Part shown: piece after piece, positions 4,301 to 53,045 of the stretch
Position numbering within the stretch: the first letter of the stretch is position 1
Layout of the letters: every line of letters starts with the position of its first letter
Assembly: GCF_022569295.1 (NCBI RefSeq)
Contig: NZ_JAKFIA010000001.1
Location: forward strand, 263,001 to 327,000
DNA: 64,000 nt
Direction: 5' to 3'
DNA from: Pedomonas mirosovicensis
GTDB taxonomy: Bacteria; Pseudomonadota; Alphaproteobacteria; Sphingomonadales; Sphingomonadaceae
Made by a program: the position numbers and the translations under genes
Notes under the pieces: generated by a model
The model's database searches: none
What the model was told of the DNA's origin: nothing
What the model saw: only the letters and a program-made list of their open reading frames with translations

Positions 4301-4784
4301 TTTCGTTAGCAGAGCCCCCGTTCGCTGAGGCGCACAAACAAAAAACCTTCCGCTGCGCCCCTTCGATTCATCGGAGCGCGATTTCCAAAGCCTCTTCCCG
4401 CGCCTCCGCCAAACAAGGCGGGACCCAGCCTGGCAATGCCCCTAGAAGCCCCGTAGAGGCACTTTACAGCGCGATTCCAGGCCTGCCCGCTACCACCCTA
4501 GCCGTAATAGGCAAAAACCTCTCTACAAGCGTTTAAACCCCCTTGGCGTTGATTTCCTGTTTTGCGGGAATTTGGCGGGCGCCTGTACGCCAGCGCGGCG
4601 ACGGCGCAGCCATTAAGAAAACGATTACTCTAATCGAATATATTCGCCATTTCTTAGTTTAAATTTCTTAGAATCATTCGCATCTTACTCACGCGCCACC
4701 AGCAATCCCCCCGGACGTCCGTGCGGGAAGCTTCAACCGCCCCGCAAGTACCGGACGTGCATTGACGGAAAGGCAGTCAATCGC
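4301..4784. other. Non-coding region with degenerate repeat, RNA-like element and AT-rich patch
   Basis: No convincing gene. From left to right it holds a degenerate half of the intergenic paired-hairpin element (gaggcgcacaaac and CCCCTTCGATTCATCGG, about 4315-4376), then the RNA-like element described separately (4410-4538, minus strand). Next comes a markedly AT-rich patch at 4610-4690 in otherwise GC-rich DNA. That patch contains the perfect 12-bp palindrome CGAATATATTCG (4635-4646) and the direct repeat TTTCTTAG twice. It probably supplies the promoter or operator for the orphan gene at 4785. Confidence 0.6.
4410..4538 (-). ncRNA. Candidate structured RNA or regulatory element, copy 1
   Basis: Read on the minus strand, this stretch aligns over about 130 nt with 52726-52860 (+). 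Shared exact blocks are GAGAGGTTTTTGCCTAT, GCTAGGGTGGTAGCGG, ATCGCGCTGTAA and GTGCCTCTACGGGGCTT, in the same order and spacing, with diverged sequence between them. Both copies begin with TTTAAACG. No open reading frame is shared. The blocks separated by variable spacers suggest a small RNA or a promoter-plus-leader; I do not recognise a known RNA family. Confidence 0.4.
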
Positions 4785-13154: not shown

Positions 13155-14909
13155 ATGCAGAAACTTGCCGTTCGCCTGGGGTCGAAGCCCGTTCGCCCGC
13201 TTCTCGAAAAGATGAACCCCGGCGGTTGGACCATCGACACCGCCGCCTTCCCCGGCGGGGAGATCGGCGTCATCCACGCGCCCGCCAGCAAGACGGCGGC
13301 GCTGTCCAGAACCGGCGTCGGCCCCGGCCTCCTGCGCTTTCCCAACGGCGATATCATCGCCTGGGCCGGCCTGCCCATCGCCCGCAACCAGCGGGTGCCG
13401 CTTACGCAGGCGAACGGCCTGCCCGGCCTTGCGCCCGAGCTGGACGGCATCTTCGCCGCCATCGGCTGGTCGGCCGCCGAAGGGCGGCTGTATGTGATTA
13501 CGGATTTTCTCGGCCTCCAGCCGCTCTATGTGGGCGACGACGCGGGCGACTGGCTGGCCGCCAGCGAAACCAAGGTCTTCCCCTACGACCCCGATCCCGT
13601 TGGCTGGGGCGGCTATTACCTCATCCTCGGCCACGCCATCGGCGATGCCACCCAGACGCGCCACGCCAGGCGCCTGCGCCCGGCAAGCGTGCTCGCCGTC
13701 ACGCCGCCGGAGAAGCCGGGCACGCCGCCGAAGGTCGAGACCACCCGCCACTGGGACATGCCGCAGGAAGGCGACAAGGATGCCTCCGCCGAGGAGGCGG
13801 CCGAGGCGCTGCTGGACAGCGCCGCCTCCTATCAGGCGCTGGTGGGGCGAAGCGTGTGCCTGCTCTCGGGCGGGTTCGACAGCCGCCTCATCCTCAGCAT
13901 CCTGACCAAACTGGGGGTGGAGCGGCGGCAGGCGCTGATCCTCAGCCACTATGACGAGGACGCGGACCTGGACGGCAAGATCGCCGCCACCATCGCCCGC
14001 AGAACCCAAACGCCCGTCACCTACTTCCAGCCGGACCGGGACTATTTCTCCAGCCGGACCTACCTCGATTATCTGTGGTCGATCGATGGGGCAACGCCCA
14101 CCCTTTACATCTTCATGGCCCAGATGATCTCGGCCCTTAAGGGCATCGACGCCATCTGGGAGGGTCTGGTGCCGGCCATGGCGTTCAAGACCATCCACCG
14201 CACGGAGGACGGCACGTTCGATGGCTTCCTGCGCGAGAAATGCCGGGCGATCCCTGAGACCATCCAGTTCCTGAAGCCCCAGGTGAGGAAGGATTTTCTG
14301 GACGCCTTCCATGCGGAGTTCGACCGCACCCGGACGCTCTACCCCGATACGCCCCACGGCATGTGGCAGTGGATCCTGGAAAACCGCATCCGCCACCGGG
14401 TGAGCGTCAACCCCACCAAGGCCTTCGCCAACCGGGTGACGCCGCTGAATCTGGGCGCCTCGCGACGGCTGTTCAGCATTACCGCGCCCGCGCCCTACGG
14501 CCGCCGGCGGGAGCGCAGCCTGTATCTGGAAGTCTACCGCATCATCGCGCCCGAGCTGGCGCGCGTGCCCTTCTATTCAGGCGGCGTGCTGCACCGGGGT
14601 GATGCGCCATGGTACAGCTTTGCCGCCTGCAAGCTGATGCAGGACGGATGGAAGGCGCTGGCCTGCTATCCCGGCCTCGCCCGCCGCCTTGGCCTTGGCC
14701 AGCATTTCGGCTTCGCGCCGTCGCGCTTCGTGCGGCACCCGGCCATCTACAAGGAAGAGGACGATTACCTGGACATGGACGTGGTGCGCCGCGCCGAAAC
14801 CGACGACCAGCTTCGCAAGGTTATCGGCAAGTTCCTGTTCCACTGGCGCACCACCCGCTGGGTACACGAGGACCGACTTTATTCAACGCTTGGCGAAGCC
14901 CGGGCCTGA
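13155..14909 (+). CDS. Asparagine-synthetase-like ATP-dependent amide synthetase, array gene 1
   Basis: 584 residues with the two-part layout of class B asparagine synthetases. An Ntn-amidotransferase-like domain spans about residues 1-200; then comes the PP-loop synthetase domain with SGGFDS at residues 238-243, the ATP-pyrophosphatase signature. Residue 2 is Gln, not Cys, so glutamine cannot be hydrolysed. In that respect it resembles beta-lactam synthetase and the lasso-peptide cyclase. Where AsnB and genes 4 and 5 have the acidic GxxxD(E) loop, this protein has WEGLVPAM. It is closely similar to genes 2 and 3. No precursor peptide or pathway partner is recognisable, so substrate and product are unknown. 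Confidence 0.8.
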   Translation: MQKLAVRLGSKPVRPLLEKMNPGGWTIDTAAFPGGEIGVIHAPASKTAALSRTGVGPGLLRFPNGDIIAWAGLPIARNQRVPLTQANGLPGLAPELDGIFAAIGWSAAEGRLYVITDFLGLQPLYVGDDAGDWLAASETKVFPYDPDPVGWGGYYLILGHAIGDATQTRHARRLRPASVLAVTPPEKPGTPPKVETTRHWDMPQEGDKDASAEEAAEALLDSAASYQALVGRSVCLLSGGFDSRLILSILTKLGVERRQALILSHYDEDADLDGKIAATIARRTQTPVTYFQPDRDYFSSRTYLDYLWSIDGATPTLYIFMAQMISALKGIDAIWEGLVPAMAFKTIHRTEDGTFDGFLREKCRAIPETIQFLKPQVRKDFLDAFHAEFDRTRTLYPDTPHGMWQWILENRIRHRVSVNPTKAFANRVTPLNLGASRRLFSITAPAPYGRRRERSLYLEVYRIIAPELARVPFYSGGVLHRGDAPWYSFAACKLMQDGWKALACYPGLARRLGLGQHFGFAPSRFVRHPAIYKEEDDYLDMDVVRRAETDDQLRKVIGKFLFHWRTTRWVHEDRLYSTLGEARA

Positions 14910-14951
14910 TGTCCGGGCAGCCAAGGTCATAAGCACCGGCGTGAGGGGCAC

Positions 14952-16697
14952 ATGCAGAAACTCGCGGTTCGTTTTGGCACTGACTCCGTCCGCCCGATGC
15001 TGGAGCGGATGAACCCCGGCGACTGGGTTATCGATATCGCCGCCTTTCCGGGCGGGGAGATCGGCGTCGTCCACGCGCCGGGCGAGCGATCGTCGGCGCT
15101 GGCCAATACGGGCGCAGGCCCCGGCCTCTGGCGGCTGGAGAACGGCGACATCATCGCCTGGAGCGGCTTGCCGCTCGCCGAAGGCAAGACGGTGCCGCGG
15201 GTGGCGGCCAACGTGCTGCCCGAACTGGCCGCCCGGCTGGACGGCGTGTTCGCCGCCATCGGCTGGTCGCAGGAAGACGGGCGGCTTTACATCGTCACCG
15301 ACTTTCTCGGCCTCCAGCCGGTCTACGTGGGCGACCATTCGGGAGACTGGGCGGCGGCGACCGAGATCAAGCCCTTCCCCTACGACCCGGACCCGGCCGG
15401 GTGGGGCGCGTTCCTCGCCTTCGGCCACACCATCGGCAACGTCACCCTGACGACGCGCGCCGAGCGGCTGCGCCCGGCAACCATTCTCACCGTAACGCCG
15501 CCGGACGCGCGAGGCGCGCCGCCGCGCATCAAAACCTCCCGCTACTGGGAGATGCCGGACGAGGGGCAGGAGCCGCCGCCAGAGGCAACCGTCGCCGCGC
15601 TCAAGGCCAACACCGCCGCCTATCAGGCGCTGGCGGGGCCGAACGTGTGCCTGCTCTCGGGCGGGTTCGACAGCCGCCTCATCCTCAGCCTGCTGCACCG
15701 CATGGGGGTGGAGGAGCGGCGCGCCTTCATCCTCAGCCACCACGACCAGGACGCGGACATGGACGGCCGGCTGGCCGCCCGCGTGGCCAAGCGCAGCAAC
15801 ACGCCGTGCGAATATTACACCCAGAACCGGGAGTTCTATTCCACCAAGGAATACCTCGACTACGTGTGGGCCATCGACGGGGCGACGCCCAACCTGCACC
15901 TGTTCATCGCCCAGCTGGCCCCCACGCTGAACGGCCACGGCTCGATCTGGGAAGGGCTGATTCCGGCGGTGGCGCTGCGCGCGCCCATGCAGTCGGGCGA
16001 CGGCGGCTTCGAGACCATGCGGCGCGAGCGGGTGCACATCAACCGCACTTCCATCAAGATTTTCAAGCCGGCGGTGCAAAAAGCCATGCTCGATGGCTTC
16101 GAAGCCGAGTTCGAGCGCACCAAGGCGCTCTATCCGCAAACGCCCCACGGGGTCTGGCAGTGGGTGATCGAGCAGCGGGTGCGGAACCGCTCGGGCATCA
16201 ACCCCACCAAGGTCTACCCCAACCACGCGACGCCGCTGATGGTTGGCTCCTCCCGCCAGCTGTGGGAGCTGATCGCGCCCATCGGCTACGAACGGCGCAA
16301 GCATTACGACTATTACATCGACGTCTTTCGCGCTCTCGCGCCGGAGATGGCGCAGATCCCCTTCTATTCCACCGGCGGCTCGCTCCACCGGGCGGACACG
16401 GACTGGGCCACCTACAAGGCCTATGAGCTTGGCCTCAAGACCTGGCGGGCCGTCAACAAGCGGCCGCTGCTCGCCCGCGCCTGCGGCATCCATCGCAAGT
16501 TCGGGTTCATCCCGTCCCGCTTCACCCGCCATCCGGTCATCTTCCGGGAGGAAGACGACCTCCTGGACATGGATTTCGTGCGCCGCGCCGAGACCGAGGA
16601 GCCGCTGCGCTTTGAGTGCGGCAAGCTGCTGTTCCACTGGCGGGCGGCGCGCTGGGTGCACGAGAACCGGCTGCACGCGACGCTGCTGCCCGGCTGA
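14952..16697 (+). CDS. Asparagine-synthetase-like ATP-dependent amide synthetase, array gene 2
   Basis: 581 residues, a close paralogue of array gene 1 along its whole length, starting with the same MQKLAVRFG-type N terminus. The PP-loop SGGFDS is at residues 236-241; Cys2 is absent; the later loop reads WEGLIPAV. It begins 42 bp after gene 1 with GTGAGGGG as ribosome site, so the two are almost certainly co-transcribed. Conserved stretches shared with genes 1 and 3 include DFLGLQP, RLRPA, SGGFDSRLIL, PHGxWQW and EEDD near the C terminus. Function inferred only from family. Confidence 0.8.
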   Translation: MQKLAVRFGTDSVRPMLERMNPGDWVIDIAAFPGGEIGVVHAPGERSSALANTGAGPGLWRLENGDIIAWSGLPLAEGKTVPRVAANVLPELAARLDGVFAAIGWSQEDGRLYIVTDFLGLQPVYVGDHSGDWAAATEIKPFPYDPDPAGWGAFLAFGHTIGNVTLTTRAERLRPATILTVTPPDARGAPPRIKTSRYWEMPDEGQEPPPEATVAALKANTAAYQALAGPNVCLLSGGFDSRLILSLLHRMGVEERRAFILSHHDQDADMDGRLAARVAKRSNTPCEYYTQNREFYSTKEYLDYVWAIDGATPNLHLFIAQLAPTLNGHGSIWEGLIPAVALRAPMQSGDGGFETMRRERVHINRTSIKIFKPAVQKAMLDGFEAEFERTKALYPQTPHGVWQWVIEQRVRNRSGINPTKVYPNHATPLMVGSSRQLWELIAPIGYERRKHYDYYIDVFRALAPEMAQIPFYSTGGSLHRADTDWATYKAYELGLKTWRAVNKRPLLARACGIHRKFGFIPSRFTRHPVIFREEDDLLDMDFVRRAETEEPLRFECGKLLFHWRAARWVHENRLHATLLPG

Positions 16698-16778
16698 GCC
16701 TCAACCGGAACCGTGACCGCCGCTTCGCGATTTTAGCGACAACTGGGCTTGCCCTTGGCCGTAAGGGCAATACCCTTC

Positions 16779-16886
16779 ATGGCGGAGAAAGGTACGGGCG
16801 TGTACCCCTCCATGGTTGCGGTTGCGCGTTATGGCCAAGACTGGCGTTCCCCTGCGGGCGCCTGCCTGTCAAAAAGATCAGCCTGA
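16779..16886 (+). CDS. Possible small peptide (35 residues) upstream of array gene 3
   Basis: An ATG-started frame of 35 codons that ends 7 bp before the start of array gene 3. The peptide has a Lys/Gly N terminus, a small hydrophobic centre and a single Cys near the C terminus. Its position would suit a leader or substrate peptide for the AsnB-like enzymes. However, it has no recognised precursor motif, only a weak ribosome site (taaggg about 12 nt upstream), and no counterpart upstream of genes 1, 2, 4 or 5. Low confidence. Confidence 0.2.
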   Translation: MAEKGTGVYPSMVAVARYGQDWRSPAGACLSKRSA

Positions 16887-16893
16887 GAGTGAC

Positions 16894-18685
16894 ATGCAGA
16901 AACTTGCCGTTCGTTTGGGCCCGAAGCCGGTTCGCCCCCCTTCTCGAGAGGATGAACCCCGGCGGCTGGACCATCGACACCGCCGCCTTCCCCGGCGGGG
17001 AAATCGGCGTCATCCACGCGCCCTCGAAGCACACCGGCATTCTGGCGAAAACCGGCACCGGGCCGGGGCTGATGCGGCTGGAGAACGGGGACATCATCGC
17101 CTGGAGCGGCCTGCCGCTGGCCGAGGGACGGACGGTGAAGCTGCGCGCGGCGCGCGATCTGCTCACGCTGGGCCGGGGGCTGGACGGCGTGTTCTCCGCC
17201 GTCGGCTGGTCCGCCGAGGACGGCCGCCTCTACGCCACCATCGATTTCCTCGGCCTCCAGCCGTTCTATTACGGCGAGACGCCGGACGGCTGGATGGCCG
17301 CCAACGAGACCAAGCCCTTCCCTTACGTGCCGGATGCGGCGGGCTGGGGCGGCTTCATCGCCTTCGGCCAGACCATCGGCGGCTCCACCCTCGCCCACCA
17401 TGCGGAGCGGCTGCGCCCGGCGACCGCGCTCACCATCACCCCCGGCATGCCCGGCGCACCGGCGAAGGTGGAGGCCACCCGCTACTGGCAGATGCCGGAC
17501 GAAAAGCCGAAGGAGCCCGCGACCGCCGATATCGTTGCAACGCTGGAGGCCAACACCGCCGCCTATCAGGCGCTGGCGGACGAAAGCGTGCTGCTGCTCT
17601 CGGGCGGGTTCGACAGCCGCCTCATCCTCGGCCTCCTCCACCGGCTGAAGGCGGAGAACCGCCGCGCCCTCATCCTCAGCCACTACGACGAGGACGCGGA
17701 TCTGGACGGGCGGCTGGCCGCCATCACGGCGCGGCTGACCGACACGCCCATCGAATACGACCACCCGGACCGGCAGTTCTTCTCCTCGGGCGCGTACCTT
17801 GACTACATCCACGCCATCGATGGCGGCACGCCCAACCTCTACATGTTCATCGCCCAGCTTTCGGCGGTGCTGGAAGGCCGCAAGGCGGTGTGGGACGGCC
17901 TCATTCCGCCGCTCGCGCTGCGCGGCCCGCTGCAAACGGCGGACGGCGCGCTGGTGCCCTTCCGCCACGAGCGCTTCCTGACCGGCGGCGCGCCCATCCG
18001 CATCTTCAAGCCGAAGGTGTTGCAGGACATGCGCGACGCCTTCCAGGCGGAGTTCGAGCGCACCAAGACCCTCTTCCCGGATTCGCCCCACGGCCGCTGG
18101 CAGTGGATCGTCGAGAACCGGATGCGGAACCGCACCGGCGTCAACCCCACCAAGGTCTACGTGAACCATGTGACGCCGCTGCTGGTGGGGTCCTCGCGCG
18201 CCCTGTGGGAGCTGGCTGCCACCATCCCCTTCGCGCGGCGGCGGGACTACCAGTATTACATAGACGTGTTCCGCACCCTCTCGCCCGAGTTGACGCGGGT
18301 GCCCTTCTCTTCGGGCGGCGACCTGCACCGGGCCGATGCGCCCTGGCACACCTACCAGACCTACGCCCTGCAACAGAAAGGCTGGCGGGCGCTGGCCCGG
18401 CGTCCGCGCCTCGCCCGCATGGTGGGCATTGCCAATGAGGCCGCCTTCGCCCCCTCGTGCTTCATGAACAGCCCCGCTCTCTACCGCGAGGAGGACGACC
18501 TGCTCGACATGGACGTGGTGCGCCGCATGGAAACCGACGAGGCATTGCGCGCCACCAACGGCAAGCTGCTGTTCCACTGGCGCACCACGCGCTGGGTGCA
18601 TGAGAACCGCCTGCACACAACCCTTCTGGAGGCCCCGGATGATCGCGACCAGCCGCTTCCTGCTCTGGCTGCCCAGGCCGGGTAG
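16894..18685 (+). CDS. Asparagine-synthetase-like ATP-dependent amide synthetase, array gene 3 (frameshifted in this sequence)
   Basis: Third close paralogue, 596 residues when a frameshift is corrected. The start MQKLAVRLGPKPVRP at 16894 matches gene 1, but a run of six C at 16935-16940 has one base too many. Removing it restores RPLLERMNPGG, which aligns with gene 1. After the run the reading frame is open to 18685. The PP-loop SGGFDS and a WDGLIPPL loop are present; Cys2 is absent. The gap to gene 2 (196 bp) is larger than between genes 1 and 2 and may hold its own promoter. The end overlaps gene 4 by 47 bp. Confidence 0.78.
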
Positions 18686-20492
18686 CCCGGCCGATCCGGC
18701 ATCGCTGCGCCGCTGGCAGGAAACCGCCGGCCGCGCGGGGCTGACCGCCGTGAACTGGGGCCCGCTGCGCCTGGGCGTCGGGCCCGGCCCCTCGCCCCGG
18801 CCCGCCGAGACCGCCGCGCCGCAAACGGTGCTGGACGCCTACCCCCTGCGCCTGCCGCACCTGCCGGCAGCCTCGGGCCCCATCGATGCGCGCTGGGCGG
18901 AGGAGCACGCCCAGATCTTCACCCTGCTCGGCTGGGACGGGCGCCAGCTCACCCTGCAATCGGATGCCGTAGGGCTGAAGCCGGTTTACTGGGCGGAGAC
19001 GGCGGACGGCTGGCTGTTCGCCTCTACCATCACCGACATTCTCCTCTGCGAGCCCGCGCTGGCCCAGCCCATCGACCCGCTGGCCCTGCAGTTCCTGTTC
19101 ATCGGCCGCGCCGTGTGGGAAGACCGCACCCTGCACCAGCGGGTGAAGCGGTTGAAGAGCGGCGCGGTCTACCGCTGGACGGCGGACGCAGGGCTCACCA
19201 TCACCCGCGAGCGGCGCTGGCAGCTGCCCGAGCCCGAGCCGAAGATGCGCTGGGACGCCTTCTGCGCCCGGATGGACGGCGAAATCGGGCGGCTGATGGA
19301 CCACACCCTTGGCAACAAGCCGGAGCCGCTGGCCCTCTCCCTTTCGGGCGGCTACGACTCGCGCCTGCTGGCGGCACAGGTGGTAGCGCGCGGGCTGAAG
19401 CCGCTGTCGCTCACCTTCGGCGCGGGCCACACGCGCGAGGCGCGCGCCGCCGCCGAGATCGCCCGCCTGCTCGGCCTGCCACACCGCGCGGCTCCCTACC
19501 GGGACGACATCATCCTCGGCCACCTCAACCGGCTGACCGGCTGGTTCGAGGGCTGCTCGGACCTGTCGCTGGGCCAGGCCGCCGCCATCGAGGACTTCCA
19601 CCTGCCGCCGGTGCGAATGGTGCAGGGCTTTGCGGGCGACCTGATCGCCGGCTCCTTCGCCGCCCGGCTGAAAGGCGGCGACGACATCTCGCTCGATGCC
19701 CTGTCCCACGCCATCGTGCGCTACTATTTCCCGACCGCGCCGGACCTCGCCCGCGTGATCGGCATTCCCTTCGATCACGATGCCATGGAAGCCAGCGTTC
19801 GCGCCGAGCTGGGCGACGACAGCCCCTGCATCCCCGCCTTCTGGCGCTGGGCGTGGGAAGACCACGTGCGGCGCTACACGGCGGGCGTGCTGCTCGCCAC
19901 CCAGCCGTGGGCCGACCTGCTGTTGCCCTACTACGACCGGGACTACGTGACCTTCTGGGCCCGTGTGCCGCTGGAAGGACAGCGGGACCGCATTTGGTTC
20001 AAGCGCTGGTTCGCCGAGCGCCACCCAACGCTCGCCCGCGTGCCCCACCCAGAGGCGCTGGAGCACATGATCTCCCAGACCCAGCCCGCCCGCGCCTTCG
20101 AGTGGACCGGGCGGCAGTGCTACAAGGTGGCCGAACGCCTGCTCGGCACCCGCCGCCTGAACGAGGCCATGCGCGCCATTGGGCGCAGCACCTACATCTA
20201 CGACGGCCCGAACCTCACCTCCCGCTGGCACCAGCGCCAGCTGTTCGAGCGGCTGGAGCAGTTCCGCCCCGCCCTGCAACAGCAGCTGGGCATCCACCTG
20301 AAGCCGGACTTCGCCAGCGGCCTGCCCGACCGGCGCGGCCGCACCACACAGCCCGCCCGCCTGCTGCTGACGCTGGGCGCCTATGCCGACCACCTGCAAC
20401 GCGCCCTCGCCGCCGGACGCCGCGAAGTGCGGCTGGAGGAAGACGCCGCCCCCTCGCAGCTCGCGCCGCAAGCCGCCCCGTCAGGAGGGTGA
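18639..20492 (+). CDS. Asparagine-synthetase-like protein, array gene 4 (divergent)
   Basis: 617 residues from ATG 18639, preceded by a good ribosome site (CTGGAGG); the gene overlaps the end of gene 3, so translation is coupled. The PP-loop is SGGYDS at residues 236-241. Unlike genes 1-3 it keeps the acidic loop GFAGDLIAGSF, closer to canonical AsnB. Residue 2 is Ile, so no glutaminase Cys. The N-terminal domain is much diverged but keeps a DAVGLKPVYW segment (AsnB-type D-x-x-G-x-K-P). A Pro/Ala-rich tail ends the protein. Probably a functionally distinct member of the array. Confidence 0.78.
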   Translation: MIATSRFLLWLPRPGSPADPASLRRWQETAGRAGLTAVNWGPLRLGVGPGPSPRPAETAAPQTVLDAYPLRLPHLPAASGPIDARWAEEHAQIFTLLGWDGRQLTLQSDAVGLKPVYWAETADGWLFASTITDILLCEPALAQPIDPLALQFLFIGRAVWEDRTLHQRVKRLKSGAVYRWTADAGLTITRERRWQLPEPEPKMRWDAFCARMDGEIGRLMDHTLGNKPEPLALSLSGGYDSRLLAAQVVARGLKPLSLTFGAGHTREARAAAEIARLLGLPHRAAPYRDDIILGHLNRLTGWFEGCSDLSLGQAAAIEDFHLPPVRMVQGFAGDLIAGSFAARLKGGDDISLDALSHAIVRYYFPTAPDLARVIGIPFDHDAMEASVRAELGDDSPCIPAFWRWAWEDHVRRYTAGVLLATQPWADLLLPYYDRDYVTFWARVPLEGQRDRIWFKRWFAERHPTLARVPHPEALEHMISQTQPARAFEWTGRQCYKVAERLLGTRRLNEAMRAIGRSTYIYDGPNLTSRWHQRQLFERLEQFRPALQQQLGIHLKPDFASGLPDRRGRTTQPARLLLTLGAYADHLQRALAAGRREVRLEEDAAPSQLAPQAAPSGG

Positions 20493-20522
20493 AGGTTCCT
20501 GTCGTTGATCGAGGTTGATTTT

Positions 20523-20657
20523 TGCAGAGGGTCTCGGACCCTCTGCACTCCCTTTCGTTTCGGGCCGCACCCGGTCGCACCGGCGCACTCTCTGGAGGAA
20601 GGACGCGGCCCGAAAAATGAATAGGGGATTGCAGGGGGAACTTGTTCCCCCTGCAAT
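20523..20657. repeat. Intergenic paired-hairpin element (copy D)
   Basis: Left arm: 23-nt perfect hairpin GCAGAGGGTC-TCG-GACCCTCTGC (20524-20546), box ACTCCCTTTCGTTT, then CGGGCCGC. Right arm inverted: GCGGCCCGAAAAATGAATAGGGGA, then hairpin GCAGGGGGAAC...GTTCCCCCTGC (20631-20654). It lies between convergent array genes 4 and 5 and probably ends both transcripts. Confidence 0.75.
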
Positions 20658-35288: not shown

Positions 35289-35340
35289 CCTGCTTTCTCG
35301 TGCTGGCACCGAAGCCACTACTCGCTTTTGGTTTTATTTT

Positions 35341-35500
35341 GCAGAGGGTCGCGGACCCTCTGCACTCCCTTTCGTTTTTCGGGCCGCGCCTCTGTTTGCG
35401 CGCGAGCCTTCTGAACGTCTCTTCAAAGGGACGCGACCTTTATCACACGCACGTCCCGATAGAAGAAAGGGAGGTGCAGGAGGGACAAGTCCCTCCTGCG
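35341..35500. repeat. Intergenic paired-hairpin element (copy G)
   Basis: Left hairpin GCAGAGGGTC-CG-GACCCTCTGC type (35341-35363), box ACTCCCTTTCGTTTTTCGGGCCGCG. Inverted right arm CGATAGAAGAAAGGGAGGT with hairpin GCAGGAGGGAC...GTCCCTCCTGC (35476-35499). It lies between the TonB receptor 3' end and the MFS gene start. Confidence 0.75.
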
Positions 35501-41929: not shown

Positions 41930-41998
41930 GCGGCGGCTTGACCGGGTGCGTCCCGCAAAACGCAAGGGAGTGCAGGGGGCCCAAGACCCCCTGCAAAC
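41930..41998. repeat. Intergenic paired-hairpin element, right arm only (copy H)
   Basis: CGGGTGCGTCCCGCAAAACGCAAGGGAGT followed by hairpin GCAGGGGGCCCAAGACCCCCTGC-type (41972-41994). The left arm is missing or degraded (41889-41930 shows only GCCGCGCCCTTCATCCGGC). It lies between two convergent genes. Confidence 0.6.
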
Positions 41999-44873: not shown

Positions 44874-46004
44874 TCAGGCGGCGGTCAACCGCGCCGGCAC
44901 GATGCGATTGAGGAGCGCCCCGATGATCCGCCGCGCCGCATCCCGGCGCTTTTCTGTCACCTCCGCCAGCAGGAAGCACAGGGTGACGATGAGCAGCAGG
45001 AAGCCCGTGAACACGAGCGCGTTGCCCTTTGAGTCGAAGCCCGCCGCCACCAGGAAGTGGGTCATCGGCCGGTGGAAGAGGTAGAGGGAAAAGGTGGAGC
45101 CCGCCGCAACCCTGACCGGCCGTTCGATGCGGGCCATGAGCCCGGCGAACCACGGCGCGCAGGCATGAAAACCGATGAAGTTGGCCATCACCAGGAGGCC
45201 CAGCAGGTGGTCGGTCAGCATCTTCTCGGAGGAGACCAGCCGCCACCAGCCCGATATGGTGGCGTGCAGCCAGGTCTTCAGCGCATCGTCCCACACGGCC
45301 GCGCCCATCCACAGGATGGCCGCCCATGTGGCCACCACCAGAGCCAGCCCGAGCAGCGGGCTTTTAAGGCGCAGGCGCGGATCAAGCGCGATCCACACGC
45401 CCATCGCCCACACCGGCGCGAGCGCGAGCACGCGCGGCCCGGCCAGCAGGGCGGCCAGCAGGAAGAACAGCCAGCGCCACGGCCCGCGGCCAAACACGAG
45501 GCAGCCGAACATCGCGTAGTAGAAGACCTCGTAGCAGATGGACCAGTAGGGGAAATTCCAGGGCAGGATCATCTCCGAGCCCCAGCTTTCGTTGAGAAAG
45601 AACAGCGAGCCGAGCGCGGTCAGCCATGAGAAGCTGGGGTCCGCCGCCCAGCCGGGCGCGTTGATGCCAAGCCAGCCCGCCAGGGCGTAGAGGGCGAAGC
45701 TGAGGAGGATGGCGGGAATGACAACCGGGTAGACGCGGGCAAGACGCGCCACCACGAAGCCGCGCAAGGACCGCCCCGGCCGTATGGTGGTGGAGGCGAT
45801 GACCAGCCCCGACAGCACGAAGAACACCATCACCGCTTCATGGCCGAGGCCGTAGAGGAAATAGGGGCCGTGATAGAGGCCGTCGTCGGCGGCATGGCCG
45901 ATGAGCACGGCCAGGGCCGCAAGGAAGCGCACGATATCCAGATAGACCGAAACCGGCCTGGTCAGGAACCTGCCGTCGCCTGCGGTTGGTGGCGTATTTT
46001 CCAT
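44874..46004 (-). CDS. Acyltransferase 3 family membrane protein (copy 1)
   Basis: 376 residues with about ten hydrophobic segments, of the OafA/NodX-type acyltransferase family that O-acylates surface or exported glycans. Visible features: the N-terminal VRFLAALAVLIGHAADD, with the conserved His used in catalysis, and HEAVMVFFVLSGLVI, the R/K-rich loop region after the second helix. It is a clear duplicate of the next gene upstream (46084-47229), with near-identical central DNA. Acceptor unknown; an exopolysaccharide is plausible. Confidence 0.88.
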   Translation of the reverse strand: MENTPPTAGDGRFLTRPVSVYLDIVRFLAALAVLIGHAADDGLYHGPYFLYGLGHEAVMVFFVLSGLVIASTTIRPGRSLRGFVVARLARVYPVVIPAILLSFALYALAGWLGINAPGWAADPSFSWLTALGSLFFLNESWGSEMILPWNFPYWSICYEVFYYAMFGCLVFGRGPWRWLFFLLAALLAGPRVLALAPVWAMGVWIALDPRLRLKSPLLGLALVVATWAAILWMGAAVWDDALKTWLHATISGWWRLVSSEKMLTDHLLGLLVMANFIGFHACAPWFAGLMARIERPVRVAAGSTFSLYLFHRPMTHFLVAAGFDSKGNALVFTGFLLLIVTLCFLLAEVTEKRRDAARRIIGALLNRIVPARLTAA

Positions 46005-46083
46005 GGGCTTGCCCGCACCCTATTGGAAGCGGAACGAGGCAAGGACCGTTTGGTTGCGCGCCGGGGCAATCTACCGGCTTTTC

Positions 46084-47229
46084 TCAGCCCTTGAGCCTTA
46101 TGTCCTGCACTGCCTCCCCACGTGCATGGGACAGGCGCTCGAACAACGCGGCGATACCCCGCCGCGCCGCATTCCGGCGCTTTTCGGTCACCTCCGCCAG
46201 CAGGAAGCAGGCAGCCACCACCCCCAGCAGCAGCCCGGTGAAGGCCAGCGCATCGTCGCCCGCGCTCACGCCCAGCGCTTCCAGCAGCTTGGTCAGCGGG
46301 CGATGGAACAGGTACAGCGAGAAGGTGGACCCCGCCAGAAACCGCACCGGCCCTTCAATGCGCGCCATATGCGGAGCGAACCATGGCGCACAGGCATGAA
46401 AGCCGATGAAATTGGCCATGACGAGAAAGCCGAGCAGATAATCGGTCACCAGTTTTTGCGACATGTACAGCCGCCACCAGCCGGGCACCACGCTGTAAAG
46501 CCAGTTCTGCACGGTTTCATCAAGCTGGCTGGCATCGAGCCAGAAGACCACCGCCCATGTGGCCGCCACCAGCGCCAGCCCGAGCAGCGGGCTCCTGAGG
46601 CGCAGGCGCGGATCAAGCGCGATCCACACGCCCATCGCCCACACCGGCGCGAGCGCGAGCACGCGCGGCCCGGCCAGCAGAGCCACCAGCAGGAAGGACA
46701 GCCAGCGCCATTGGCCCCGGCCGAACGCCAGGCAGCCGAACATTACGTAGTAGAAGACCTCGTAACTGATCGACCAGTAGGGGGAGTTCCAGGGCAGGAT
46801 CATCTCCGAGCCCCAGCTTTCGTTGAGAAAGAACAGCGAGCCGAGCGCGGTCAGCCATGAGAAGTTGGGGTCCGCCGCCCAGCCGGGCGCGTTGATGCCA
46901 AGCCCGCCCGCCAGGGCATAGAGAGCGAAGCTGAGGAGGATGGCGGGAATGACGACGGAATAAATGCGCGCCGCCCGAGCAATAATGAATGCCTGCGCGT
47001 CCCGGCCTTTCCGCAGGGATGTCTCGGCGATCACCAGCCCGGAGAGCACGAAGAAAATCATCACCGCTTCGTGGCTCAGGGTCGTGAGGATATAGGCGCC
47101 GTCGTACAGCCCATCCTGCACGCCATGGCCGATCAAAACGGACAGCGCCGCCAGGAATCGCACAAGGTCCAGGTAGACGGAGACCGGTTTTGTCAGGAAC
47201 CGGTCATTTGCAACTGCTCCGCTCGCCAT
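46084..47229 (-). CDS. Acyltransferase 3 family membrane protein (copy 2)
   Basis: 381 residues from ATG 47229, chosen because GGGAG lies five bases upstream (an ATG at 47241 is possible). Same family and motifs as the neighbouring copy: VRFLAALSVLIGHGVQD and HEAVMIFFVLSGLVIAE. The two proteins match along their whole length, and their genes share long blocks of almost identical DNA (for example 46600-46690 with 45350-45440), while the ends differ. This suggests tandem duplication with later gene conversion. The genes are 80 bp apart and may be one operon. Confidence 0.88.
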   Translation of the reverse strand: MASGAVANDRFLTKPVSVYLDLVRFLAALSVLIGHGVQDGLYDGAYILTTLSHEAVMIFFVLSGLVIAETSLRKGRDAQAFIIARAARIYSVVIPAILLSFALYALAGGLGINAPGWAADPNFSWLTALGSLFFLNESWGSEMILPWNSPYWSISYEVFYYVMFGCLAFGRGQWRWLSFLLVALLAGPRVLALAPVWAMGVWIALDPRLRLRSPLLGLALVAATWAVVFWLDASQLDETVQNWLYSVVPGWWRLYMSQKLVTDYLLGFLVMANFIGFHACAPWFAPHMARIEGPVRFLAGSTFSLYLFHRPLTKLLEALGVSAGDDALAFTGLLLGVVAACFLLAEVTEKRRNAARRGIAALFERLSHARGEAVQDIRLKG

Positions 47230-51306: not shown

Positions 51307-52598
51307 ATGACGTTGCGTCTGGATGTCCGCGAGCCCGGCTTCGAGGCCGCCTTCACCGCGCTGGTGGAAGACCGGCGCGAAGCCCCGACCGACGTGCGCG
51401 ACGTGGTGACCGCCCTCCTCAAGGACGTGCGCGACCGGGGCGACGAAGCCCTCATCGACTACACGAAGAAATTCGACCGCATCGACCTGCGGAAAACCGG
51501 CCTTCAGGTAACGCGCGAGGAAATCGAGGCGGCCATTGCCGCCTGCGAGCCCGAGGTGCTGGCCGCCCTCAAGCTGGCCGCCGAGCGCATCGCCGCCTTC
51601 CACGCGATTCAAAAGCCGGAAGACAAGCAGGTGACGGATGCGGCGGGCGTGACCGCCGGGTTCCGCTGGTCCGCCATCGATGCCGTCGGCCTTTATGTGC
51701 CGGGGGGCTCGCCAGCTATCCGTCGTCGGTGCTGATGAACGCCGTGCCGGCGAAGGTGGCGGGCGTCCAGCGCCTTGTCATGGTGACGCCAACGCCGGAT
51801 GGACGCCTCAACCCGTTGGTGCTGGCCGCGGCGGACCTTGCGGGCGTTGATGAAATCTACCGCATCGGCGGCGCGCAGGCGGTAGCCGCGCTCGCCTACG
51901 GCACCAAGAGCATCCGCCCGGTCGACAAGATCGTCGGCCCCGGCAACGCCTTCGTGGCGGAGGCCAAGCGCCAGGTGTTCGGCCTCGTCGGCATCGACAT
52001 GATCGCCGGGCCCTCCGAAATCCTCGTGGTGGCGGACGGCGCCAACAACCCCCTCCACATCGCGGCGGACCTGCTCAGCCAGGCCGAGCATGATGTCACC
52101 GCCCAGTCCATCCTCATCACCGATGACGCCGCCTTCGCGGATGCCGTCATCGAAGCGGTGGAGGCCACCATCCCCACGCTCGCCAGCGCCAACGTGGCGC
52201 GCCAGAGCTGGAACCGCTTCGGCGCGGTCATCCTCGTCGACAAGCTGGAGGACGCGCCGCCGCTCATCGACCGGCTCGCGCCCGAACACCTGGAACTGGC
52301 TGTCGCCAACCCCGCCGCCCTCATGGCGAAGGTGCGCCACGCCGGCTCCGTGTTCATGGGCCGCCTGACGCCCGAGGCCATCGGCGACTACCTCGGCGGC
52401 CCCAACCACGTGCTGCCCACCGGGCGGCGCGCCCGCTTCTCCTCGGGGCTTTCGGTCACCGACTTCATGAAGCGCACCACCTTCCTCTCGTGCAGCGAAG
52501 ACGGCCTCAAGGCCATCGGCCCCTCCGCCGTGAGTCTCGCCACGGCAGAAGGCCTGCCCGCCCACGCACGGTCGGTGTCTGTACGGTTGGGGGAATAG
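51307..52598 (+). CDS. hisD: Histidinol dehydrogenase (frameshifted in this sequence)
   Basis: Last two oxidation steps to histidine. Corrected length is about 430 residues, the family norm. The first 137 residues are in frame with ATG 51307, up to GLYVPGG. A run of six G (51702-51707) is then one base short. With seven G the text continues [19 protein letters not shown], the standard sequence, in the frame that stops at 52598. Later motifs include [12 protein letters not shown] and LLSQAEHD, with zinc ligands. A broken hisD beside intact hisG makes sequence error likely. Confidence 0.92.
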
Positions 52599-52665
52599 GG
52601 TTTTGATTGAAGGGGGTCTCGGACCCCCTTCACCCCCATTCGTCTATCGGGCCGTGGTTTCGGCG

Positions 52666-52706
52666 CTTATTTGGATAAATGTTCTCCAAAATTTTATCCA
52701 AATAAG
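52666..52706. repeat. AT-rich perfect inverted repeat
   Basis: CTTATTTGGATAAA (52666-52679) and its exact complement TTTATCCAAATAAG (52693-52706), 13-nt spacer. Very AT-rich for this DNA. CGGCG...CGCCG further flank it. Could be a hairpin terminator, an operator or a relic of an insertion end. Confidence 0.6.
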
Positions 52707-52725
52707 CAAATCGCCGCTAATGGGA

Positions 52726-52860
52726 TTTAAACGTTCATTGAGAGGTTTTTGCCTATCTCAGCTAGGGTGGTAGCGGACACCCCCAAAATCGCGCTGTAAG
52801 GTGCCTCTACGGGGCTTTACGGGCCATGCCAGTCCATGGTCTCGCCCCGTTTGGTTTCGT
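52726..52860 (+). ncRNA. Candidate structured RNA or regulatory element, copy 2
   Basis: Same ordered blocks as the minus-strand copy at 4410-4538: TTTAAACG, GAGAGGTTTTTGCCTAT, GCTAGGGTGGTAGCGG, ATCGCGCTGTAA, GTGCCTCTACGGGGCTT. Both copies lie next to arms of the paired-hairpin repeat and in gaps of more than 400 bp. No shared reading frame. Family unknown. Confidence 0.4.
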
Positions 52861-53045
52861 GCCAACAACCGAAGGCTTTGATGATACGACCGCGCCCTTC
52901 AGGACTCGCGGCGGGACATGGCACGCACGGCCCTTTCACTTCCAAAGGAAAAGCCCGCACCCCGTCCCGCTCGCACGGCCCGAAAAACGAAAGGGAGTGC
53001 AGAGGGTCCGAGACCCTCCGCAAGAACCCAAAACACCCATAACAA

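Follow-up and report, generated by a model that had tools for sequence, protein, structure and literature searches.

The intergenic DNA considered here raises the question of what kind of element repeats itself in opposite orientation within one stretch of chromosome, and what keeps it so similar. The stretch, hereafter the window, is 64,000 nucleotides long and corresponds to positions 263001-327000 of contig C1 (2,725,887 bp) in the genome of Pedomonas mirosovicensis (G000, Sphingomonadaceae; 3.63 Mb in two contigs, the other being C2 of 905,578 bp). An earlier note, made from the letters alone, had described in it two non-coding copies of an RNA-like element of about 130 nt that share four exact blocks. 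The blocks are present in both copies, and neither their order nor their steps (21, 27 and 13 nt) differ: they start at 52740, 52761, 52788 and 52801 in the plus copy and at 4523, 4502, 4475 and 4462 in the minus copy, and span 52740-52817 (+) and 4523-4446 (-). Neither copy overlaps a called gene, in agreement with the note. When the plus copy was used as the query in a DNA search of its own genome, the minus copy was recovered at E = 1.1e-28, and the resemblance of the two is therefore not due to chance. The length given earlier was too short: homology extends over about 52699-52856 (+) (profile match C1:315700-315856, 126.7 bits) and 4407-4564 (-) (profile match C1:267407-267563, 127.7 bits), and so takes in, beside the four blocks, a conserved segment on the 5' side and a hairpin with TTT after it on the 3' side.

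In the plus copy, alignment places the conserved 5' segment at 52707-52733, for which a test for an RpoD promoter was negative. The left arm of the closing stem P1 follows at 52734-52742 (alignment columns 36-44); this stem is perfect in the consensus and imperfect in this copy. From sequence and alignment, block 1 (GAGAGGTTTTTGCCTAT) lies at 52740-52756 and block 3 (ATCGCGCTGTAA) at 52788-52799. Between them, block 2 (GCTAGGGTGGTAGCGG, 52761-52776) includes the hairpin H2 (GCTA/TAGC) and is the best-kept part between genera, and block 4 (GTGCCTCTACGGGGCTT, 52801-52817) holds the right arm of P1 according to the stem analysis. The 3' hairpin and its TTT, which are terminator-like in most copies, occupy 52819-52852. 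In the minus copy, blocks 1 to 4 lie on the minus strand at 4507-4523, 4487-4502, 4464-4475 and 4446-4462.

Further copies are numerous, and the description of a two-copy element has to be given up. The DNA search with the plus copy found a unit of about 155 bp in 29 copies that are 74-100% identical, 26 on C1 (2.7 Mb) and 3 on C2 (0.9 Mb). A profile built from those 29 recovered the same 29 at 104-136 bits, with one additional weak partial match at C2:85788-85873 (14.8 bits, E = 0.05). What looked like a resemblance within one window is the tip of a 29-copy family that is absent from Rfam. Among 162 aligned columns, 33 are invariant, and in 30 at most 16 of the 29 copies agree. In the core 100 columns, where the mean majority share is 87%, 31 are invariant against 1.8 expected if variation were uniform across columns, an expectation that treats the copies as independent when they are not fully so. 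Invariant blocks amid a diverged background indicate that the blocks are kept by selection, which is the main evidence on this point; together with diverged homologues in other genera, it upholds the earlier view of a selected element. Just upstream of the plus copy lies a 14-bp inverted repeat (52666-52706), the like of which precedes a minority of the 29 copies and is possibly an optional 5' module. Other copies are preceded by a different 5' module (ATCCGGACAAAA..), and such variation may reflect a mosaic structure.

Genes at all loci were called with a home-made codon-usage gene finder. By these calls all 29 copies are intergenic, with 20 in convergent gaps, 8 in tandem gaps and 1 in a divergent gap, while the 335 copy-free gaps at the same loci comprise 47 convergent (14%), 223 tandem and 65 divergent ones. 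Copies are enriched in convergent gaps (P = 2.4e-11) and depleted in divergent gaps (P = 0.015 by number, 1e-4 by length). Five of the 8 tandem-gap copies are co-directional with their neighbours and 3 are antisense to both; the divergent-gap copy has no upstream gene on its strand. These 3 antisense copies and the divergent one mean that the unit cannot strictly be called a 3'-UTR element. In 23 of the 29 copies the gene that follows is encoded on the other strand, which excludes a riboswitch or leader for downstream genes. The same count, the single divergent-gap copy (1/29) and the scores for an RpoD-type promoter upstream of the copies, which did not exceed those of shuffled sequences (9.79 vs 9.60), speak against the promoter-leader unit that the note had offered beside a small RNA. 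The promoter consensus was that of Caulobacter RpoD only, as given in the part of PMC8144410 consulted.

A Pfam scan of all 29 upstream and 5 of the 29 downstream neighbours found a family match in 24 of the 29 upstream proteins. Their functions are unrelated and housekeeping, and include hisD, flaF, an anthranilate-synthase-type enzyme, ruvX, a glyoxalase-type hydrolase, asparagine synthase, phytase, marC, histidine phosphatase, a chemotaxis receptor, glmS, a release factor, ferrochelatase, rpsI, a LysR regulator, TauE and H+-PPase, among others. Since the upstream neighbours are functionally unrelated, the units do not mark a regulon. Taken together, the placement at gene ends, the avoidance of promoters, the conservation in place and the unrelated neighbours fit a cis element better than a trans-acting gene.

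We tentatively propose that the unit is a dispersed intergenic repeat of about 155 bp that is kept by selection for a local role at gene 3' ends, mostly between convergent pairs; this is the reading we prefer, short of calling it probable. New copies would originate by rare duplication into new gene-end sites and would turn over between genera. A retained copy may work in cis via its hairpins as a putative end-of-transcription boundary, ending or protecting the 3' ends of converging transcripts, and/or as a candidate site for a protein that copes with the supercoiling accumulated between convergent genes. Function in place is suggested because some of the 29 copies should have lost their blocks if they were redundant genes acting in trans. 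The gene-end position alone, however, could result from purifying selection against insertion elsewhere, and the folding energies, which count against the proposal, are unremarkable (mean z -1.30 for the copies vs -1.25 for their upstream flanks). Should the units terminate or insulate transcription where it converges, or serve as the seat of a topology protein, they would offer a direct test of the function of REP-like elements.

Alternatively, the units could be 29 small-RNA genes, transcribed from the strand as read here and made of P1, H2 and a terminator hairpin, whose products would target mRNAs in trans or serve as a sponge for a protein. We regard this as possible, with the balance of evidence leaning against it. 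The consensus P1 is a perfect 10-bp stem (columns 35-44 with 108-117), equalled in length by only 2 of 200 shuffles. P1 is formed in 79% of cells and the 3' hairpin in 82%, compared with 25-57% for slid versions. Between genera, H2 has changed in both of its arms (columns 61-79, CG 30 and UA 9; columns 62-78, GC 8 and CG 7). On the copy tree, transitions in paired columns preserve pairing 50:18 (P = 1.3e-4), and the ratio of C>T to G>A is 38:13 in paired and 48:75 in unpaired columns; an initial count had given 59 pairing-compatible changes vs 27, or 54 vs 10 minus columns 39-41, an omission that was chosen post hoc. However, random sets of other consensus stems match the pairing-preserving fraction in 9% of draws, which lowered this signal from strong to suggestive and leaves the strand signal weak. 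Within the 29 copies, covariation in P1 and the 3' hairpin was not above shuffles.

The downstream flanks have a mean folding z of -0.55 and the reverse complements of the copies one of -1.45, and the two window copies themselves score -1.61 and -0.37; several copies of the related genome G073 fold strongly (mean z -2.04, 9 copies). The 3' hairpin followed by T, found in most copies, has a mean z of -1.5 and short T runs. RNAalifold on all 44 sequences supported only five pairs; the four-genome alignment took 9 of 12 matches from G073 (without L091, L093 and L095), 5 of 5 from G079 and 1 of 1 from G220, and left out the weak G000 partial match L077. A search of the window against Rfam 15 returned two tRNAs only at the gathering score and weak chance matches only in E-value mode, and six other loci gave nothing at the gathering score. 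This excludes a known Rfam RNA at these places, and the note was right that no known RNA family matches. The promoter scores given above and the decay that would be expected of 29 redundant copies also weigh against a family of small-RNA genes. As judged from sequence, P1, the both-side changes in H2 and the excess of pairing-preserving transitions are only suggestive of RNA, and an RNA function of some kind is plausible.

The distribution of the unit among relatives bears on its origin. A plain DNA search matched none of 58 related genomes, and a first profile matched 4 of 199 family genomes, the source genome included. A second profile, to which copies from G073, G079 and G220 were added, matched 28 of 397 Sphingomonadaceae genomes at E <= 0.01, where chance would give about 4, and 10 of 397 at E <= 1.2e-5 (G000, G073, G079, G220, G025, G296, G068, G063, G316 and G017); these E-values are rough and the models lean to G000. 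At the level of the order, 11 of 396 genomes matched at E <= 0.001, all within Sphingomonadaceae. G000 has 29 copies, G073 has them at 14 distinct places (E <= 1e-4) and G079 has 5 (E <= 1e-10); the number is low elsewhere, so that among the family genomes matched the unit is clearly multi-copy in three only. Self-searches found one full copy each in G017 and G316. The consensus differs by genome, every multi-copy genome having its own. A pattern derived from the alignment matches three contigs of the metagenome-assembled genome Sphingomonadaceae bacterium RH-23may17-415.

In G316 the copy (L176:3225-3379, minus strand) is carried by a plasmid of 4,328 bp that also has a resolvase-like gene and a RepA gene. 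The length of this plasmid equals that of Sphingopyxis terrae records and of pSM103mini of S. macrogoltabida, and the query region is identical in them; the unit carries no annotation in these plasmid records. On this plasmid the unit adjoins repeated CGACGCGTTCG motifs that look iteron-like by eye. The window copy had no match in plasmids or phages, and the G073 and G017 copies had none in plasmids; the G079 copy gave short partial matches to plasmids only, judged unrelated. Exact patterns had 0 matches in viral contigs, and the first exact pattern had 0 in genome contigs as well.

Elsewhere in relatives, the G220 copy lies 4 nt downstream of a tyrosine-integrase gene, the G296 copy at the 3' end of another tyrosine-integrase gene, the G025 copy after glmS and a G073 copy after ruvX. 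These positions are likewise gene ends and were counted in favour of the gene-end element. The G068 copy is 382 bp from a large serine recombinase gene. We compared the neighbours of the 29 copies with 30 loci of relatives, namely 15 places in G073 (from 17 matches, two of which were opposite-strand overlaps), 6 of 8 in G079, 1 of 4 in G220, 2 of 10 in G063 and the best match only in G017, G316, G296, G068, G025 and G085. One position, after ruvX, is shared on both flanks by G000 and G073, and one other on the downstream flank only (C1:632103 and L165 of G073). The glmS site is common to G000 and G025, with the unit in opposite orientation. The remaining G000 positions differ from the relatives' loci, so that G000 and G073 have no more than 2 orthologous positions in common. 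The unit occurs at the 3' end of ruvX in 2 of 30 fetched loci (G000 and G073), and genomes with a RuvX closer to that of G000 lack it there; independent gain at a favoured site and repeated loss both fit this distribution.

Such turnover would also be expected of a miniature non-autonomous mobile element without host function, spread in trans by a recombinase and biased towards gene ends by the loss of other insertions. We consider this explanation unlikely. In its favour are the patchy occurrence, the genome-specific consensus, the scarcity of orthologous positions with the ruvX site in particular, and the single copies beside integrase and recombinase genes and on the small plasmid. However, the longest direct repeats flanking the same copy average 5.69 nt and those from unrelated copies 5.93 nt; a target-site duplication signal is thus absent, and a transposon that makes such duplications is excluded. 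The neighbours scanned in G000 (29 upstream and 5 downstream) include no transposase or recombinase, the Y1_Tnp family is absent from G000 and G073, and dead inserts would not be expected to keep blocks invariant while the copies differ by about 20%.

The gene-end element that we prefer leaves one feature aside. The 26 copies on C1 show a more regular spacing than random points would (CV 0.549, P = 0.0008), and their smallest gap is 28.8 kb (P = 0.00026), with an unremarkable largest gap (P = 0.09). This even spacing at about 100 kb is the most unusual feature of the family and is not accounted for by a purely local role. In a further reading, some 30 lineage-specific boundary sites would split the chromosome at steps of about 100 kb where transcription converges. 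A protein devoted to them would read these sites, either as DNA or as hairpins in newly made RNA, and would evolve together with the consensus of each genome, and small plasmids would use the same module; we judge this to be quite improbable. Very improbable in our judgement is a purely long-range site at which a DNA-binding or topology protein would organise the chromosome, since the even spacing, the position where supercoils collect (an argument as in the part of PMC1525189 consulted) and the presence on both replicons and a small plasmid are met by only 3 of 29 copies on the 0.9-Mb C2, below the expectation from length (P = 0.046), by the lack of detection in most genera of Sphingomonadaceae, by an orientation along C1 that shows no bias by eye, and by the fact that recombination between near copies could remove them and so also yield evenness.

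Among known repeats, ERIC, RIME and MITEs are intergenic elements of about 100-200 bp, which the unit resembles, by description only, in intergenic position and size. An integron attC site was rejected by eye only. REPs measure 20-40 bp, are found between genes that converge or share an orientation, and comprise the RAYT-linked GTAG and the CGTC super-families (PMC3733652, in part), and where they lie between convergent genes, binding of gyrase, DNA polymerase I and IHF has been discussed (PMC1525189, in part). Like GTAG REPs and BIMEs, as described in those parts of PMC3733652 and PMC1525189, the unit is dispersed, intergenic, mostly 3' of genes and hairpin-forming; unlike the short REP with its unpaired GTAG tag, it is about 155 bp long. 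GTAG does occur in 28 of the 29 copies at column 73, internal and paired within the H2 stem. A Y1 transposase (PF01797) was found in 1 of 8 genomes examined, with one in G079 and none in G000 or G073. The internal, paired GTAG and the lack of PF01797 in G000 and G073 exclude a REP/RAYT element.

CGTC REPs are common in alphaproteobacteria, including Sphingomonas wittichii and Novosphingobium aromaticivorans, and the part of PMC3733652 consulted describes them as having no linked transposase. They share with the unit the bacterial family, the placement and this lack of a transposase, but CGTC is found at any column in at most 2 of the 29 copies, and a single 8-9-bp stem-loop is far shorter than the unit. 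In Bradyrhizobium, the repeat Br-REP1, described in part of PMC5082802, has three palindromes, lies in convergent 3' ends and has small RNAs arising from its site; it is similar in being alphaproteobacterial, in its position at convergent 3' ends and in its three stem-loops, but the short consensus printed there is unlike the blocks, in a comparison made by text description. The Rhizobiales trans-sRNA families SmelA003, SmelB126 and SmelA075/A099 (PMC3927594, in part) also occur in each genome as several diverged copies that share a conserved motif and are distributed over several replicons; however, they are transcribed and few per genome, whereas the present family has 29 copies and is known from sequence alone. 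In the literature searched, no published description of this repeat was found. Our best reading is a new repeat family of the general REP/BIME/Br-REP kind by placement, yet not a REP, since neither the tags nor the RAYT are present and the unit's length is several times that of a REP. This undescribed family has a clear, testable placement rule and unusually even spacing.

Several other features of the window were observed. A second, shorter repeat occurs at 20513-20560, 35330-35377, 41949-41996, 52598-52645 and 52976-53023, and resembles a terminator hairpin; it is formed around AGGGTCCGAGACCCT, and its CTCCCTTTCGTTT side is conserved. The 52.7-kb unit has one copy of this shorter repeat on either side, the two in opposite orientation. 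The hisD gene (51307-52598) is split into two overlapping frames, 51307-51735 and 51729-52598, which match positions 5-118 and 125-411 of Pfam Histidinol_dh; the split is a frameshift, either genuine or an assembly error. The adjacent minus-strand genes at 44874-47229 (376 and 381 aa) are apparent tandem duplicates and are 69% alike over a stretch of 300 nt. At 13155-20492, the plus strand carries a run of four genes of 577-617 aa, of which at least three are diverged tandem duplicates in steps of about 1.8-1.9 kb.
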